From the NCBI RefSeq assembly GCF_009914765.1, contig NZ_WYDS01000011.1, forward strand, positions 62,001 through 126,000: a stretch of 64,000 nt of DNA, given 5' to 3'. Positions 33,887 to 43,373 of this stretch are shown in pieces; position 1 is the first letter of the stretch; each line of letters begins with the position of its first letter. Under the pieces are notes generated by a model. The model ran no database searches. It was not told the DNA's origin and saw only the letters and a list, made by a program, of their open reading frames with translations. The position numbers and the translations under genes were made by a program. This DNA comes from Halodesulfovibrio sp. MK-HDV (GTDB taxonomy: Bacteria; Desulfobacterota; Desulfovibrionia; Desulfovibrionales; Desulfovibrionaceae).

Positions 33887-35881
33887 CTAATTGGCTGCGA
33901 GAGCCACCTCTTGACGCGGGAAACGAACAGTAAAGCATGTGCCGTCACCTACTGCGCTTTGAATATTGAGCTCTCCTCCATATTCACGCACAATGCCGTA
34001 GGATATGGCAAGGCCTAGTCCCATTCCTTGCCCTGTGGCTTTTGTTGTAAAGAATGGTTCAAATACCTTCTCTGCCACATGGTCAGGAATACCGGTTCCG
34101 TTATCTTCTACCGAAACAGATACTCCTTCGTCGTCATATTCTGTTCGAATCAGGATACGGCCTCTCACATCCGCTCCATCTTCATTTCTTTCTACAATAG
34201 CGTCACGGGCATTAATTACCAGATTCAGCAACACCTGCTGCAACTTGTTGTGCTGTGCAGTAATGTACGGCAGTGCCGGATCAAGTTCTGTGACAATATG
34301 AACATCTTCAATAAGGAATTGCCTGCTGAGTAATGAAACAACAGACCCTACCGGCTCGTTCAAATTAACGTCTTCAAGCAGTAAATCTGCCTTTCGACCG
34401 AACGACCTGAGTGTATTAATGATGTCAGAAGCCCTGTCTACCTGAGTGCTTATTTCTGTAATCACCTGTACATATTGTTCTTGCGGGATTTCAATACCCT
34501 GCTCATGTACCATGGTTAAGAAATCGCTGCCCATACGGATAGCATTCAATGGCTGATTAAGCTCATGTGCAACCCCTGTGGACATTTCACCAAGAGACTT
34601 CATTTTAGATGCCTGAATAAGCTGGGCATCTTTTTCTACAAGATCGGTAACATCCGTTGTAGCAACAATTATTGCAGGACGAGTACGATAGCTAATGAGA
34701 CACGCAGTTACGTTGACGTACATCGGAATGTTACCGTTACGTAAATGCACAACACGCGCGGACTTCATCGCCTCTGCGCATAAATCATCATTGTTAAAGT
34801 ATTCAAAGCATTCTTTTGCATGCTCTTCACCCAGAACTGAATATCGCATACCGACCAGTTCATCACGGGAATACCCGTAGATTTCTTCTGTTCGCGGGTT
34901 TGCGTCCACAAGTTGCTGTGTAAGTACATCCACAACAAAAATAGGGTCAGGACCACTGCGGAACAAGGAACGGTAGGTACTTTCAGATTCCTGCAATCGA
35001 CGACGGTACAAGCGAATAGACCACACCATGTTTCGGAAGGACGTGGTTAACTGCTGTACTTCATCGCCATCGCTCGGTTCATTATAGAATGCACACTTCT
35101 TACAACGGTGCGGCCTGGCTCCCGCTTTCGATCCCGCTCGCTGTTCATCAAAATGCCAGCAAGGGAGATCCGTATCGTGGAAGGCAGGACACGCTATTTG
35201 CTCCTCAGTATTCATAAGATCTGAAGAGCTAAAATTACCCCGCGACAAATCATCAGATATCTTCGTCAGCGTCATGACAGGATCAGCAATATATTTTGTT
35301 AACCTGTGACTGACCCAGAAAGTAATAATAATGACTGCGGAAATAAATCCTAAGAACATTGCGCGCAACTTACCAACGAGGTTATCTATATGCGCCTTAG
35401 ATAACCCCACATGAACCGTACCTATTTGGTAAATACCCTCTTTAATGGGTACTGCAATATCATACGCTTCATGCTCTCCAAGTGGCACAACCTCCACACT
35501 CTTCTCCACCCTTTCGGTTACGGGGTTAACACCCTTTAACCTTTTAGGAAACGGAGTGGTAAAAGTATGGCTAAGTATTTTTCCGTTTTTTCCTTCAACG
35601 TAAATATACGCAACGAGATTTCTACGCTCGTTGAGTTGCTTTTCATCAAAAAGAACATTCAGCAAATGGTCTGTGTCATTCTCTAGAATATATTCTGTGC
35701 CACGCGTTGCAACACTGTGCGCGATGGCTGTACCCCGCATTTCCAGTTCCTGAGTCAAACCGGAAATAAGAATCCAACGCGCGAGCAAAGCAATAGTGCC
35801 GCTGATGAGCAGAATAACTATCAGAATAGAAAAGAAGAATTTATTCTTCAAACTAAGCTGTGCAAATTTTGAGCGAATCAT
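33887..35881 (-). CDS. Membrane sensor histidine kinase with HAMP, Cys-rich insert and PAS
   Basis: Kinase of 664 residues. Membrane helix at about 15-37, periplasmic sensing domain to about 170, second helix at about 172-192, HAMP, then a Cys-rich insert (residues about 229-262) reading CPAF...PCWHF...CKKCAFY, like the two-CW type motif often seen in Desulfovibrio sensors and possibly a metal or Fe-S site. A PAS domain (about 300-420), HisKA with [14 protein letters not shown] (phospho-acceptor His), and HATPase_c ([29 protein letters not shown]). Start overlaps the binding-protein stop (ATGA). Partner regulator is the REC-STAS protein directly downstream. Confidence 0.92.
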
Positions 35882-37128
35882 TGCTTAACAGGCTCCTCAA
35901 GTTTGACCAAAGCTCTACGCTTCAACAATAGGTCTGTGTCGTCAATCAATTTAAATTCGCCATTCTCTAACACGGTATAATACACCATATCCAAGCCCTG
36001 ATGATCTTTAGGCGTAAACGCCACAGATGCATAACCGCCAAGCGGAAATTCCTCCATGGATTCTAGCGCATTCATAAAACTTTCACGGGTCAAATTTCTT
36101 CCTGCTCTACGCAGTCCCTCAACCAATACCCGTGCATTCAGGTAGCCCTCAAGACCAACCGCATTAGGAACGTCGTCCGGATAAAATTCATTCAAATGAC
36201 GTACATAATCGTCCGCAATCCCCATCAGGTCTCGAACCTGAGGTGCAGACGGAGGAGGAACAACTTGTGAAACAAGCACCTCTCCCTTTATGTCGTCCGG
36301 CAGACGTCTGGCAAGCTCTTCCGCACCAACAAAAGACAAATTAAAAAACGCGGCGTCCAGCCCGAGAGCGTCCGCTTTTTTTATAAATTCTGCACATGGC
36401 TCGTACGTACCGACAAGCACAACAGCATCCGGTTGAGCACCGACTATACGCTGTAACGCTTCATCAATATCAATTCCGCCACGAACATATGAGCCACGCG
36501 CAACAGGCGCAAGCCCTACTTCACGCAAAGCAAGCTCAGTCCCCATAAGACCGTCAAATCCATACGCATCGTATTGATAAAAAACTGCAACGCGCTTGTA
36601 CTTCATACGAGACACAAGCAAATCAACAGCGGCTTTTGTTTCCTGATAGTAGGATGCGCGAATATTAAAGACATATGGATTGAAAGGCACACGCAAGGCA
36701 TTGGCACCTGTAAAGGCTCCAACTAGCGGTATTTTGGCATCTTCTATCAAAGGTAAGACACGTACAGTGGTAGGGGTTCCTACAAAACCGAAGAGAGAAA
36801 AGACGTTGCCGCTACTAATAAGCTGATGTGTATTAGCAAGGCATCTGGTCGGGTCATACCCGTCATTGATGGCCTGCAACGTGATGAGCCGGCCGTGTAC
36901 GCCCCCAAGAGCGTTGACATTGCGTAAATAGCTTAACGCACCACGCAAGGTTTGCGTGCCCAGGTAACTAGCGTGCCCCTCGAGGGCAAGCGAGGAACCA
37001 AGGGTGATTTCAGTGGAAGAGACACCTGGCACCATGGCATGCTGTCCAGTTTTTTTCACTTCCGTTTCACATCCCAGCAGTACAAAACAAAGTACTGCCC
37101 AAGCCGCAAACTTGAATGCTTCACGCAT
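35878..37128 (-). CDS. Periplasmic binding lipoprotein, branched-chain amino-acid (LivJ) type
   Basis: Lipoprotein of 416 residues with a lipobox VLLGC and a type I periplasmic-binding fold (Peripla_BP_6): ITLGSSLALEGHASYLG, INDGYDPTRCLANT, LFGFVGTPTTVRVLPL, FNIRASYYQET and AVFYQYDAYG are typical of the LivJ/AmiC group. No permease or ATPase gene is adjacent. Instead the gene overlaps the sensor kinase gene, so the protein probably delivers ligand to the kinase's periplasmic domain and not to a transporter. Ligand likely an amino acid, amide or aromatic acid. Confidence 0.9.
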   Translation of the reverse strand: MREAFKFAAWAVLCFVLLGCETEVKKTGQHAMVPGVSSTEITLGSSLALEGHASYLGTQTLRGALSYLRNVNALGGVHGRLITLQAINDGYDPTRCLANTHQLISSGNVFSLFGFVGTPTTVRVLPLIEDAKIPLVGAFTGANALRVPFNPYVFNIRASYYQETKAAVDLLVSRMKYKRVAVFYQYDAYGFDGLMGTELALREVGLAPVARGSYVRGGIDIDEALQRIVGAQPDAVVLVGTYEPCAEFIKKADALGLDAAFFNLSFVGAEELARRLPDDIKGEVLVSQVVPPPSAPQVRDLMGIADDYVRHLNEFYPDDVPNAVGLEGYLNARVLVEGLRRAGRNLTRESFMNALESMEEFPLGGYASVAFTPKDHQGLDMVYYTVLENGEFKLIDDTDLLLKRRALVKLEEPVKQ

Positions 37129-37367: not shown

Positions 37368-38243
37368 ATGCAAGAAACAGCAGTTTTCGACCTTTCAATG
37401 CTTGATTCTGAAGAAGCAGCATTAGAATACCTTCTTTCTTTTTGTTGGCCTTCTGGTGTACGGTTTTGTCCAAGATGTGGACAACACAAACTTTACACTT
37501 TGTCGGGGGGTCGCTATCGCTGTGCAACTTGCAAATATACATTTCAGGATTTCAGCGGCCGCTGGATTAACAACGGCAGCCTGTCTCCTTCCACATGGCT
37601 CCATCTGGCACACATGTTCCTACAGGAATACACTGTGCACGAACTGGCACAAGAAGTTAATCTTTCCTACAACGCTGCCTACAAAGCAGTAACAACCATT
37701 CGTTTCGCCCTGCTTGCGCACGCAACTGATGCGCGCCAGCTTCTCGGGCCGGAAACCGGTCTTGGTAAATACATCAACGGAAAGAAACTCACCGGTGCAC
37801 CGCCACCTAGAGCCAAGGGTGCCATCCCTGTTTTCGGAATTATGGAACGAAACGGCTGGGTCTTCATTGACCTTGTCAGTGGCATAGAGGCAGAAACTGT
37901 CTTCCACTTCAACCATAGCTTCCACCTTACGCTCTTCCGCGCCGGTAACATTATATACACGGGTAAATACCGTCAGTATGATGCACTTATCCTGTGCGGA
38001 GACGATTCCCTGCCGTATGAATACATACGAAAATACAATCACGACTTCCCGATTAAAGAAGGCTCCTTCTGGGAATTCGGTCACTCCCGTCTTAAGCGCT
38101 TCAAGGGTATCACCCCACAGCGTTTCCCGCTCTACCTCAAGGAACTTGAGTTCCGCTACAACAATAAAGAGGGCGACATTCTTTCCCTTTTATTGAACCA
38201 GTTGTGCGACCTTGTTCCTGACTTTGACCCTTTCAAGAAGTAA
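37368..38243 (+). CDS. IS1595-like transposase-derived protein, catalytic residues lost
   Basis: Protein of 291 residues. N-terminal zinc ribbon C34-x2-C37 ... C52-x2-C55 (CPRCGQ, CATCKY) of the IS1595 type, a helix-turn-helix-like stretch (HELAQEVNLSYNAAYKAV), then an ISXO2-like nuclease fold. Aligning by eye, the first catalytic Asp (family VDETYIGGK) falls in GLGKYINGK, and the second (family YTDGY) in IYTGKYRQYD, so both are replaced; only a Glu in the last block (KEGSFWEF...RLKR) remains. I found no terminal inverted repeats or target duplication. It is therefore probably a domesticated DNA-binding protein. It sits in the same direction 530 bases upstream of fdhA and may regulate it. Confidence 0.78.
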   Translation: MQETAVFDLSMLDSEEAALEYLLSFCWPSGVRFCPRCGQHKLYTLSGGRYRCATCKYTFQDFSGRWINNGSLSPSTWLHLAHMFLQEYTVHELAQEVNLSYNAAYKAVTTIRFALLAHATDARQLLGPETGLGKYINGKKLTGAPPPRAKGAIPVFGIMERNGWVFIDLVSGIEAETVFHFNHSFHLTLFRAGNIIYTGKYRQYDALILCGDDSLPYEYIRKYNHDFPIKEGSFWEFGHSRLKRFKGITPQRFPLYLKELEFRYNNKEGDILSLLLNQLCDLVPDFDPFKK

Positions 38244-38290
38244 GTAATCACAGTAAAATTTCAACATGTTAGACACTTACGTCTCATATG

Positions 38291-38333
38291 GTGTCAAACT
38301 GTGCGTATATATTGTGCCAGACCGTGCGTAATT
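38291..38333 (+). repeat. Tandem direct repeat, candidate operator pair for fdhAB
   Basis: Copy 1 at 38291-38310 (GTGTCAAACTGTGCGTATAT) and copy 2 at 38314-38333 (GTGCCAGACCGTGCGTAATT) match at 16 of 20 positions, with a 23-base period, close to two helical turns. Such phasing is typical of a regulator binding as adjacent dimers on one face of DNA. Confidence 0.6.
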
Positions 38334-38511: not shown

Positions 38512-38748
38512 ATGGAACGTAGAAATCGTTCGCAACACAATGAAGCAAAGTTGCTTCCTTTTTCAGGACTCGGGATATCCTTATCCTGCGTTAGTACGCG
38601 TGCAGCGTTGTGTGAACTTACGCCCATCCCAACTGGAAAAGTGTCCTCTATTCGACCATTGCTTTCTGAATACATACCGATCTGTAACGGATACGGCTCC
38701 GGATTCAGCATGTTAATTGCGCTTGGTCGTGAAATTAGAGGCCGATGA
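38512..38748 (+). CDS. Small open frame in the fdhA leader (uncertain)
   Basis: 78 codons in the same direction as fdhA, with GGAAGGGG about nine bases before the ATG and a stop 26 bases before the fdhA start. The product (starting MERRNRSQHNEAKLLPFSG, ending IALGREIRGR) has no recognised domain or signal peptide. An open frame of similar length runs on the opposite strand (38463-38774), so coding status is undecided. It could be a leader gene or just non-coding leader. Confidence 0.28.
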   Translation: MERRNRSQHNEAKLLPFSGLGISLSCVSTRAALCELTPIPTGKVSSIRPLLSEYIPICNGYGSGFSMLIALGREIRGR

Positions 38749-38773: not shown

Positions 38774-41700
38774 ATGACAGTCTCCCGTAGGCAATTCCTC
38801 AAGCTTTCTGCAGGCGCTGCCACCGCGTCTGCATTTGGCGGACTTGGCATTTCTTTAAAGCCAACCGTCGCGAGAGCTGAGCTCCAAAAGCTTAAATGGG
38901 CTAAACAGACAACGTCCGTATGTTGTTACTGTGCTGTAGGCTGCGGCCTTATTGTACACACGGCTAAAGACGGTGAAGGCCGTGCAATCAACGTAGAAGG
39001 CGATCCGGATCATCCGATCAACGAAGGTTCCCTTTGTGCGAAAGGCGCGTCCATCTGGCAGCTCGCAGAAAATGCAAACCGACCACAAACTCCATTATAC
39101 CGTGCTCCTAACAGCGGAGAATGGAAGCCAGTTTCATGGGACTGGGCACTCACTGAAATCGCTAAACGTGTCAAAAAGACTCGTGACAAATCTTTCCAGC
39201 TCAAAAACGACAAAGGCGAACAAGTTAACCGTACCGAAGCAATCGCTTCTGCGGGCTCAGCAGCTATGGATAACGAAGAGTGCTGGGCATATCAGTCATT
39301 ACTCAGATCTCTCGGCTTGGTGTACGTAGAACACCAAGCACGTATCTGACACAGCGCAACTGTAGCGGCTCTGGCAGAGTCGTTTGGACGCGGTGCGATG
39401 ACAAACCACTGGATCGACCTTAAGAACAGTGACTGTGTATTAATCATGGGCAGTAACGCTGCCGAAAACCATCCGATTTCTTTTAAATGGGTGATGAAAG
39501 CTAAAGACAAGGGCGCAACACTTATCCACGTTGACCCTCGCTTTACCCGTACTTCCGCTAAGTGTGATGTATATGCTCCTATTCGCTCCGGTGCGGATAT
39601 TCCGTTCCTTGGCGGTCTGGTCAAATACATCCTCGATAATAACAAATTCTTCCACGAGTATGTTGTTAACTATACCAACGCATCATTTGTAGTTGGTAAA
39701 GACTTTGAATTTAATGACGGTTTATTCTCCGGCTTCGATCCGAAGAAAAGTTCCTACGACAAGTCAAAATGGGCTTTTGAAATGGATGACAAAGGTGTAC
39801 CGGTTCGTGATGAATCGCTCAAAAACCCGCGTTGTGTATTTAACCTGCTTAAAAAGCACTTTGAACGTTATGACGTAGATACCGTCTCCACCGTTACCGG
39901 AACTCCTAAAGAAGATATTCTTAAAGTTTACGAAACATACGCAGCATCCGGTGTTCCAGATAAGTCTGCAACCATCATGTACGCAATGGGCTGGACTCAG
40001 CACACTGTCGGCGTTCAGAACATCCGCACAATGGCCATGGTGCAGCTCCTCCTTGGCAACATCGGCGTAGCCGGTGGTGGCGTGAACGCCTTGCGTGGTG
40101 AATCAAACGTACAGGGTTCCACCGACCACTGTCTGCTCGTCCACATTCTGCCTGGCTACCTTGGTACACCTAAGTCCAAATGGTCAGACCTTGCAGCGTA
40201 CAACAAAAATTGTACTCCTCAGTCTGCAGACCCTATGTCCGCTAACTGGTGGGGCAACAAGCCTAAGTATGTATCCAGCTTTGTAAAAGCAATGTATCCG
40301 GAAGCATCGCCTGAAAAAGGCTACGAAATGCTGCCAAAGCTTGATGCACACAAGCAGATGACTGAATACTACTGGCTTTCCATGTTCGAAAAAATGCACA
40401 AAGGTCAGTTTGACGGCTTCTTTGCATGGGGACAGAACCCTGCCTGCGGTGGCGCAAACGCCAATAAAAACCGCGAAGCAATGGCAGAACTGGACTGGCT
40501 TGTTAACGTAAACATCTTTGACAACGAAACAGCCTCCTTCTGGCGTGGTCCTAAGATGGACCCGAAAGATATTAAGACAGAGGTCTTCTTCCTTCCGTGT
40601 GCTGTTTCCATTGAGAAAGAAGGTTCAGTTACAAACTCTGGTCGCTGGATGCAGTGGCGCTACAGAGGACCTAAGCCATACGGACAGACACTTCCTGACG
40701 GTGACATCATCCTTAAACTCACCGACAGAATTCAGCAGCTCTACAAAACAGAAGGCGGCGCATATCCTGATCCTATCGTAGGTCTTGGCCTTAACGATTG
40801 GCAGAACAGCCATGGTCATTTTGACCCGCATGGTATTGCAAAACTTATCAACGGTTACTTCTTAAAGGATACCGAAGTTAAGGGTAAGCAGTTCAAAAAA
40901 GGCCAGCAGGTTCCGAGCTTTGCCTACCTTAAAGATGACGGCTCCACCTGTTCCGGTAACTGGCTCTACTGTGGTTCCTACACAGAAAAAGGCAACATGG
41001 CTGCCCGCCGTGACAAAACTCAGAATGGTGCACAGGCAAACATTGGTCTGTACCCTAACTGGGCATGGTGTTGGCCTGTAAACCGTCGTATTCTTTACAA
41101 CCGCGCATCAGTTGACCTTAACGGTAAACCGTATGCACCTAAGAAAGCGGTTATCGAATGGACTGGTGACAAAACCAAATGGCAAGGCGACATTCCTGAT
41201 GGCGGCTGGAAACCGGGTACAAAGCACGCATTTATCATGCGTAAGCACGGCTTCGGTCAGATTTACGGACCGGGACGCGCAGACGGACCATTCCCAGAGC
41301 ACTATGAACCGCTCGAATGTCCAATTGCGAAAAACCCATTCTCTTCCCAGCTGCACAACCCTACTGCTTACCAAATTAGCAGTGAGGAAAAAGCAGTTGC
41401 CAACCCGCGCTTCCCTTACGTTGGTACAACCTACCGCGTAACAGAGCACTGGCAGACTGGTCTTATGACCCGTTATCAGGGTTGGTTGATTGAAACAGAG
41501 CCACAGTTGTTCTGTGAAATCAGTGAAGAACTTGCGAAGAAAGAAAACATTGATAACGGCGAGACGGTTAACGTTTCCAGCCTACGCGGCAAGCTCGAGT
41601 GTGTTGCCATCGTTACCAAGCGCATCAAGCCTTACAAAGTCCATGGTCAGGACGTACATCTCGTTGGCCTGCCTTGGCACTATGGCTGGGTGACACCGAA

Positions 41701-41812
41701 AAACGGTGGTGATTCTGCAAACCTCCTCACACCTTCTGTGGGCGACCCTAACACCGGTATTCCGGAGACTAAGGCGTTCATGGTTAATGTGAGCAAGATA
41801 AAGAGAGCGTAA
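38774..41812 (+). CDS. fdhA: Formate dehydrogenase catalytic subunit FdhA, selenocysteine-containing, periplasmic
   Basis: Mo/W-bis-MGD subunit that interconverts formate and CO2; about 1012 residues when the in-frame TGA at 39347-39349 is read as selenocysteine (residue 192). Tat signal SRRQFLKLS at the N-terminus directs the folded protein to the periplasm. The [4Fe-4S] site is C-x2-C-x3-C (CCYCAVGC) plus CAKG. The TGA sits in HQARI-U-HSATVAALAE, the conserved position of Sec followed by His in Desulfovibrio formate dehydrogenases, and the frame continues without a break to 41812. ATG 38774 has AGGAGG seven bases upstream. fdhB follows after 3 bases. No cytochrome subunit is adjacent, so it should be the two-subunit FdhAB form that donates to periplasmic cytochrome c3. 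Confidence 0.96.
39347..39349 (+). other. Selenocysteine codon (UGA) in fdhA
   Basis: In-frame TGA between ATC and CAC, followed by an uninterrupted formate dehydrogenase sequence and a hairpin at suitable distance. Recoding needs SelA, SelB, SelC and SelD from elsewhere in the genome. Confidence 0.95.
39366..39382 (+). promoter_or_regulatory. Bacterial SECIS-like hairpin in fdhA
   Basis: CGGCTCT-GGC-AGAGTCG: 7-bp stem with one G-U pair and a small GGC loop, starting 17 bases after the UGA. Position and size fit bacterial SECIS elements that recruit SelB. Confidence 0.7.
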
Positions 41813-41815
41813 GCC

Positions 41816-42526
41816 ATGGCTAAAAAATTCCTCGTCGATCTTACACGTTGTACGGCATGTCGTGGTTGTCAGGTAGCGTGTAAGCAATGGAAAAAGCTTC
41901 CGGCCGAAGCAACTGTGAACTGGGGCTCCCACCAGAACCCTAGAGATCTGAGCTTCAACACATTGCGGCTCGTCCGCTTTGAGGAAGTCGTTAATGATGG
42001 CAAAGTTGACTGGCTGTTTTTCCCTGAGCAGTGTCGTCACTGTTACGAGCCGCCTTGTATGGGGCAGGCTGAACTTGATGACGAACGCGCTGTAGTTCAG
42101 GATGAAGAAACCGGTGCTGTTATCTTTACCGAATATACTAGAAATGTTGATGCTGAAGGCGTTCGCGAATCATGTCCGTACGATATTCCACGTAAGGACC
42201 CAGCAACGGGACAGCTCTCTAAATGTGACATGTGTATCGACCGTATTCAAAACGGCATGAAGCCGTCCTGCGTTTTATCCTGTCCAACAGGCGCTATGAC
42301 GTTTGGCGAAGAAGAAGAAATTGATGCACTGGCAAAAGAACGACTCGCGGCTGCGCAAAAGCGTTACCCAGAAGCCGTTCTCGGCGATCCGGACGATGTA
42401 CGCGTGGTCTACCTATTCCAACAGGACCCAACCAAGTACTTTGAAAAAGCAATTGCAGCGGCTTCACCAAATATGATGAATCGTAAGCAGATGTTTGCAC
42501 GTCTGCTCGGCACAACAAAAGCATAA
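41816..42526 (+). CDS. fdhB: Formate dehydrogenase iron-sulfur subunit FdhB
   Basis: Electron-transfer subunit of 236 residues with ferredoxin-like Cys clusters: CTACRGCQVACK near residue 12, CRHCYEPPC near 74, CPYD, CDMCIDR and C-x3-CPTGAM, able to hold up to three or four [4Fe-4S] clusters. No signal peptide, so it is presumably exported with FdhA by the Tat route as a complex. It passes electrons from FdhA to periplasmic cytochromes. Ends just before a strong terminator. Confidence 0.94.
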   Translation: MAKKFLVDLTRCTACRGCQVACKQWKKLPAEATVNWGSHQNPRDLSFNTLRLVRFEEVVNDGKVDWLFFPEQCRHCYEPPCMGQAELDDERAVVQDEETGAVIFTEYTRNVDAEGVRESCPYDIPRKDPATGQLSKCDMCIDRIQNGMKPSCVLSCPTGAMTFGEEEEIDALAKERLAAAQKRYPEAVLGDPDDVRVVYLFQQDPTKYFEKAIAAASPNMMNRKQMFARLLGTTKA

Positions 42527-42659: not shown

Positions 42660-43373
42660 ATGAAAGCAGTCAGCATTGTTGGATACAAAAAATCAGGCAA
42701 AACTACTCTCACCCGCAAAATTGCAGATGCTCTTGAAGCACGCGGCAAAACCGTGACAATTGCAAAGTTCACTCATTCAGGATTAACAAAACCAGATACC
42801 GACACTGGCCACTTTATGAAAGATGGCAGAGCCGTTATCGGTCTCGGTGAAAAAGAGTGCGCAATTCATTGGGGAGAAAAAAAGATGCTTCCTGATATGC
42901 TTCCTTTAACACAAGCTGACTATTTGCTCGTCGAAGGCGGCAAAACATTGAGCTGGTTACCGCGTATTGTTCTTCTTCGTGAACCGGAAGAGCAAGAAGC
43001 GCTGGATAGAGGTCTCGCAATCGCATCCTTTGGAGATCTCAAAGCGACAGGTGTTCCAAGCTTCACGTCTGCAAACTTTGATGAGCTTGTGGATCGCATT
43101 GAAGAAAAGTCATTTATGCTTCCAGCACTCGACTGTGGAGCCTGTGGTGAAGAAACCTGTGAAGCAATCGCTCAAAAGATTGTTGCAGGCAAAGCCACCA
43201 TGAAGGCGTGCAAGTCCATCAACAACTCCGCAATGACGATCACCGTAAACGGCTCACCAGTCGGGTTGAACCCGTTTGTGGAGAACATTATTCGAGGTTC
43301 CATTGAAGGAATGCTCGGTTCCTTAAAGGGATATGCACCGGGCAGCAAAGTAGAAATAAAAATTTCGAAATAA
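42660..43373 (+). CDS. mobB: Molybdopterin-guanine dinucleotide biosynthesis protein MobB with Fe-S-like C-terminal domain
   Basis: Protein of 237 residues. The N-terminal 150 residues are a MobB-type P-loop GTPase (VGYKKSGKTTLTRK; DYLLVEGGK). A C-terminal part has C-x2-C-x4-C then a later Cys (LDCGACGEETCEAI...KACKS), the spacing of a four-Cys Fe-S (FeS/PF04060-like) motif, followed by a VNGSPVGLNPFVENII block. Such extended MobB proteins occur in anaerobes. It lies just downstream of fdhAB but with its own terminator on either side. It probably supports loading of the cofactor into formate dehydrogenase. Confidence 0.87.
   Translation: MKAVSIVGYKKSGKTTLTRKIADALEARGKTVTIAKFTHSGLTKPDTDTGHFMKDGRAVIGLGEKECAIHWGEKKMLPDMLPLTQADYLLVEGGKTLSWLPRIVLLREPEEQEALDRGLAIASFGDLKATGVPSFTSANFDELVDRIEEKSFMLPALDCGACGEETCEAIAQKIVAGKATMKACKSINNSAMTITVNGSPVGLNPFVENIIRGSIEGMLGSLKGYAPGSKVEIKISK

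Follow-up and report, generated by a model that had tools for sequence, protein, structure and literature searches.

Upstream of the genes of a periplasmic formate dehydrogenase, Halodesulfovibrio sp. MK-HDV carries a gene, here called T, whose product resembles an IS1595-type transposase. What does such a gene do at this place? Control of periplasmic formate dehydrogenase in sulfate reducers is poorly known, and the enzyme matters for energy metabolism and for CO2-reduction technology. We analysed a window of 64,000 nucleotides (contig NZ_WYDS01000011.1, positions 62,001 to 126,000), for which an earlier note had suggested a former transposase reused as a DNA-binding regulator. The relevant features are as follows.

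37368–38243, + strand: gene T, a catalytically dead IS1595-type protein of 291 aa (ORF, Pfam, alignment to IS1595 transposases)
37407–37541, + strand: zinc ribbon of T, residues 14–58 (Pfam; conservation in 43 homologues)
37587–37718, + strand: three-helix HTH-like segment of T, residues 74–117 (AlphaFold2 model)
37737–38162, + strand: DDE_Tnp_IS1595 domain of T, residues 124–265 (Pfam; alignment)
38286–38330, + strand: tandem repeat of two 22-nt copies, candidate operator of the fdhAB unit
38512–38748, + strand: conserved small ORF of 78 aa (LPFSGLG ... ALGREIRGR), directly before fdhA
38774–41812, + strand: fdhA, periplasmic formate dehydrogenase large subunit, with a selenocysteine TGA at 39347–39349
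41816–42526, + strand: fdhB, 4Fe-4S subunit
42660–43373, + strand (the same strand): MobB-like cofactor protein with an FeS domain; its function is likely related

T and fdhAB thus run in the same direction, as had been noted. The small ORF between the tandem repeat and fdhA and the in-frame TGA of fdhA had both been missed.

The retention of the zinc ribbon and of the relation to IS1595, claimed before, was borne out by two Pfam matches above cut-off, DDE_Tnp_IS1595 (E 5.6e-20; 72.3 bits, cut-off 27) and Zn_ribbon_IS1595 (E 7.2e-15; 55.1 bits, cut-off 25.4). The NCBIfam IS1595 equivalog was not reached (36.4 bits against a cut-off of 75). Within the zinc ribbon, C34, C37, C52 and C55 are invariant in 43 homologues. 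An AlphaFold2 model built with 43 homologues (mean pLDDT 90.8) shows three helices at residues 74–117, followed by a strand-rich domain. A fold search in the PDB gave no whole-fold match, only likeness to zinc ribbons and a weak resemblance of the helical segment to HTH folds (Z about 3), which is no proof. The Pfam matches of T included neither HTH_17 or PBP_like, the domains of the TaoR family, nor the phage-integrase-type DNA-binding domain and ModE/TOBE sensor of the TunR family.

Alignment to multi-copy IS1595 elements from the same order and to ISEc69, all of which have D, D, N, showed that the catalytic site is lost more completely than previously thought. Instead of two of three catalytic acids, all three are gone: G133 (codon 37764–37766) and G199 (codon 37962–37964) take the places of the first and second D of active transposases, and the third position (N/E) falls in a gap. 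An intact D-D-E site was thus looked for and not found. In the 81 T proteins compared, more than half have G or H at the first position and 19 have D; 58 retain the second D, and the HINGIE motif around the third position is lost from every T row among those listed. The variable D positions together with the lost HINGIE indicate that full-site loss is a trait of the family, complete in Halodesulfovibrio.

The ends of a mobile element are missing as well. No inverted repeats above the level of shuffled sequence flank T, in agreement with the earlier note, and no second copy was found in this genome, where T is the sole DDE_Tnp_IS1595 match; a search for identical copies with terminal repeats was accordingly negative. 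Real IS1595 elements of related genomes occur in up to about 30 near-identical copies with clear ends, and those of one related genus have the terminal repeats GGGGCTGTRCCAGATAACT. IS1595 (ISXO2-like) transposases, ISEc69 and the multi-copy Desulfovibrionaceae elements among them, share the zinc ribbon and DDE_Tnp_IS1595 with T, whereas T lacks D, D, N and terminal repeats, is not multi-copy and belongs to a separate clade. This single clade set T proteins apart from all IS1595 rows tested (SH-aLRT 98.6) in a quick tree in which the Legionella row sat on a long branch.

The search for orthologues proposed in the earlier note recovered T with intact frames across the order. It is found in all ten genus genomes. 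Of 297 Desulfovibrionales genomes sampled, 189 have a match at E <= 0.001; about 31 of these matches are weak and resemble ordinary IS1595, and without them about 158 genomes (hand count) carry T. Between close congeners dN/dS is 0.008–0.03, values that are rough because dS is near or above 1. Some genomes carry paralogues of about 35–40% identity beside other fdhAB copies. As for T being mobile, plasmid matches among those listed were ordinary IS1595 (23–28% identity), and one unannotated phage record matched with 26% identity over 57% of the query; mobility was rejected.

Conservation extends to the neighbourhood. In 80 T loci, picked non-randomly across genera, fdhA or fdhB lies within 3 kb of T in 53 and fdhD, fdhE, moaA, moeA or mobB in 24, so that a position near fdhAB or cofactor genes recurs in 77/80; the earlier note had wished to see the position near fdhA checked. 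One genus has the arrangement tupABC, fdhD, fdhE, moaA, T (names by sequence resemblance, not by profile scan). Three loci have neither kind of gene within 3 kb; G002 (L083) is one of them because other genes intervene between T and fdhA. There, several kb including a large efflux-pump-like gene separate T from the small ORF–fdhA unit, which is still on T's side and strand. A close FdhA is encoded in 157 of about 158 genomes with T as against 80 of 139 without it (p 3e-22, inflated by genome relatedness). The small ORF was seen upstream of fdhA in 36 loci from several genera and families, with PF.GLG near its start and GY.LL..LGREIRGR at its end; it has no Pfam or NCBIfam match, and its AlphaFold2 model is poor (pLDDT 65).

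Could T simply be a decaying insertion-sequence remnant that lies by fdhA by chance? Its lost catalytic site and missing terminal repeats would fit, whereas the conserved linkage, a dN/dS near 0.02 and reading frames that stay intact throughout the order do not, and selection and conservation together refute this idea, to which we give practically no weight. T is a single- or low-copy gene in orthologous position under purifying selection, as is typical of domesticated transposases. Order-wide orthologues, purifying selection, the lost site and the conserved position near fdhAB or cofactor genes argue strongly for a former transposase reused by the host, as the earlier note had proposed; on these sequence data we consider domestication of T almost certain.

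The tandem repeat next to T is real, with two 22-nt copies at 38286–38307 and 38309–38330 (start-to-start distance 23) and the core GTGYCARACYGTGCGTA at 38291–38307 and 38314–38330. T does lie upstream of it, as described before, with 42 nt from the end of the gene to the first copy. Close congeners have the repeat at the same place. In the 4.17-Mb genome its pattern has eight matches with <=2 mismatches. Two are the fdhAB copies; the sole further match with one mismatch precedes a ModE-like gene that lies ahead of fdhA-3, and one of the five matches with two mismatches is upstream of fdhA-2. The best independent matches are therefore upstream of this genome's other two fdhA genes. Across ten genus genomes, every one of the 12 matches with <=1 mismatch has an fdhA downstream: nine are fdhAB-1 sites related by descent, and three belong to further fdhA copies (G000 C2, G004 C8, G005 C163). 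This makes the repeat a formate dehydrogenase promoter motif, whatever its binder. The ModE-like gene between motif and fdhA-3 at G000:C2 (L159) is short and of the HTH type, and L246 has one like it ahead of an fdhA. A Sigma-70 promoter scan of the T–fdhA gap gave nothing usable.

A dyad, ATGYC-N6-GRCAT, occurs in fdh and T promoters across the order, and its spacer of 6 stands out from other spacers. With <=1 mismatch it was present in 13/49 fdh-side regions, about a quarter, in 11/80 regions upstream of T and in 74/1280 control upstream regions (Fisher p 6e-6 for the fdh side and 0.014 for T), the consensus being partly derived from the same regions on which it was tested. Among the listed sites with a perfect TTATGYC-N6-GRCATAA, 10/11 precede fdhA, fdhE-T or an aldehyde:ferredoxin-oxidoreductase-like gene (the latter identified by eye from sequence), one of them reaching fdhA through an intervening ModE-like gene; the eleventh precedes a sensor-like gene. 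G118 and G127, whose T is away from fdhA, have the dyad before both fdhE-T and fdhA. Four genomes lacking T, a small sample, had no perfect dyad among the matches listed. The Halodesulfovibrio motif, TTGTGY-N8-GCGTAA, is arranged in much the same way and is mostly 3–4 mismatches from the dyad, so the two may be different sites. Several Halodesulfovibrio fdhA-3 promoters contain both motifs, and Halodesulfovibrio aor promoters neither.

An order-wide motif at about -350 from fdhA was rejected: T abuts the small ORF and many matches were coding, namely T's last codons (V-P-[DN]-F). They were discarded and the scan was repeated on non-coding gaps. The likeness of GTRCCAGAT in the ends GGGGCTGTRCCAGATAACT to GTGCCARAY comes from that flawed scan, may be due to chance and was not used.

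We propose that an IS1595-type transposase was captured in Desulfovibrionales, that its catalytic site was then lost and that it may now serve the host by regulating transcription of formate dehydrogenase, in several genera probably also of other W/Mo enzymes and of cofactor genes. The zinc ribbon and HTH would let T bind DNA, most likely at repeats in fdh promoters, here the tandem copies at 38286–38330, and T would thereby change transcription of the small ORF–fdhAB unit. Such regulation of formate dehydrogenase, and probably of other W/Mo enzymes, by a captured and catalytically dead T seems probable to us, and some role of T in regulating formate dehydrogenase or W/Mo genes is likely. The term DNA-binding regulator in the earlier note is still the best description, given the kept zinc ribbon and HTH, the lost catalysis and the conserved promoter motifs; the binding itself we infer. 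More tentatively, T may bind the tandem repeat, the candidate operator of the fdhAB unit, directly. It is likewise conceivable, though somewhat short of probable, that throughout the order this DDE transposase family directly controls the transcription of formate dehydrogenase and other W/Mo enzymes by binding the dyad or, in Halodesulfovibrio, its variant, and that it does so independently of TaoR.

The repeat and the dyad could also belong to another W/Mo regulator, such as TaoR, a ModE-like protein or some other factor, with T regulating other sites or co-acting, a possibility that we take seriously without favouring it. TaoR is described as a regulator of the tungsten aldehyde oxidoreductase (PMC11980592), and the dyad set includes aor-type genes; DVU3193 acts on tupABC (PMC10102598). 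The dyad is found, too, before aldehyde oxidoreductase genes remote from T, as would be expected of a general W/Mo regulator, and a ModE-like gene lies between motif and fdhA-3. TaoR does exist in Halodesulfovibrio, and a PF12727 search found TaoR-type proteins in G003, G019, G130 and G000, the genome of this window. The one in G000 is frameshifted; its gene (L307, G000:C30:4500-8000, about 1051–1677) is split, perhaps by an assembly error, and is intact in a congener (L289). On the other hand, the aor promoters of Halodesulfovibrio lack both motifs, and six genomes in which the dyad stands at fdh, fdhE-T or aor-type genes (G118, G127, G208, G058, G045, G053) had no TaoR-type protein among the PF12727 matches inspected, which took in part of the weak ones and were a MoeA-type fusion and PstS-, LysR- and TupA-like proteins. 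This argues against TaoR as sole owner of the dyad and is compatible with T, without being proof.

Alternatively, T might use its zinc ribbon and inactive nuclease fold to assist formate dehydrogenase as an accessory protein, for example by inserting the cofactor, decoding selenocysteine or handling mRNA. Its tight linkage to fdhAB and the maturation genes fdhD/fdhE/moaA would agree with this, as would the TGA in 43/47 T-adjacent FdhA. The other four have Cys, which led us to reject a selenocysteine-specific role; some genomes have FdhA without T, and HTH and zinc ribbon are kept as in DNA-binding transposases. We therefore find an accessory function unlikely and return to T as a probable regulator.

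To our knowledge, few bacterial DDE-class recombinases are known as recruited regulators. TunR, ascribed to work by Kazakov in 2013, is said to combine an XerC/XerD-like DNA-binding domain with a ModE-type sensor. Like the T proposed here, it is a recombinase-derived W/Mo transcription factor of the same bacteria; unlike T, which is of DDE origin and showed no sensor domain in the Pfam scan, it is of tyrosine-recombinase origin and has a metal-sensing domain. TaoR, reportedly described as a W/Mo-enzyme regulator of sulfate reducers by Rajeev in 2019, shares with T the setting in Desulfovibrio, a DNA-binding part from mobile elements (excisionase-like in TaoR) and the link to W/Mo enzymes, whereas its domains are unrelated and it was not found in six genomes having T and the dyad. 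TldR is a nuclease-dead TnpB (PMC13418256) and thus, like T, a mobile-element protein reused after loss of catalysis, with transcription control predicted in the case of T; unlike T, which has its own DNA-binding-type domains, it is RNA-guided and TnpB-derived. Mobile-element-derived regulators are therefore known already, and in the open literature searched we found no described IS1595 case with the role suggested for T and no paper describing T. Under domain-based annotation these genes would be labelled transposases and escape notice. If our reading is right, T would add another mobile-element recombinase, here of the DDE class, to those that have come to control W/Mo genes in these bacteria. 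As an order-wide transposase-derived candidate with named target sites, it lends itself to direct tests in two laboratory strains, D. vulgaris Hildenborough and D. alaskensis G20.

A few further observations concern genes around T and the dyad. Next to T lie genes for a sensor kinase and a periplasmic binding protein (33887–37128, - strand); in many genera such a pair is again found close to T and fdhAB, and it may share their control circuit. Dyads also precede W-/Mo-type aldehyde oxidoreductase genes at L238, L244 and L251 (aor-like) and, with one mismatch, a mop-like pair at L247 and L255. Some of the aldehyde oxidoreductase genes that bear the dyad have a conserved neighbour coding for about 200 aa.
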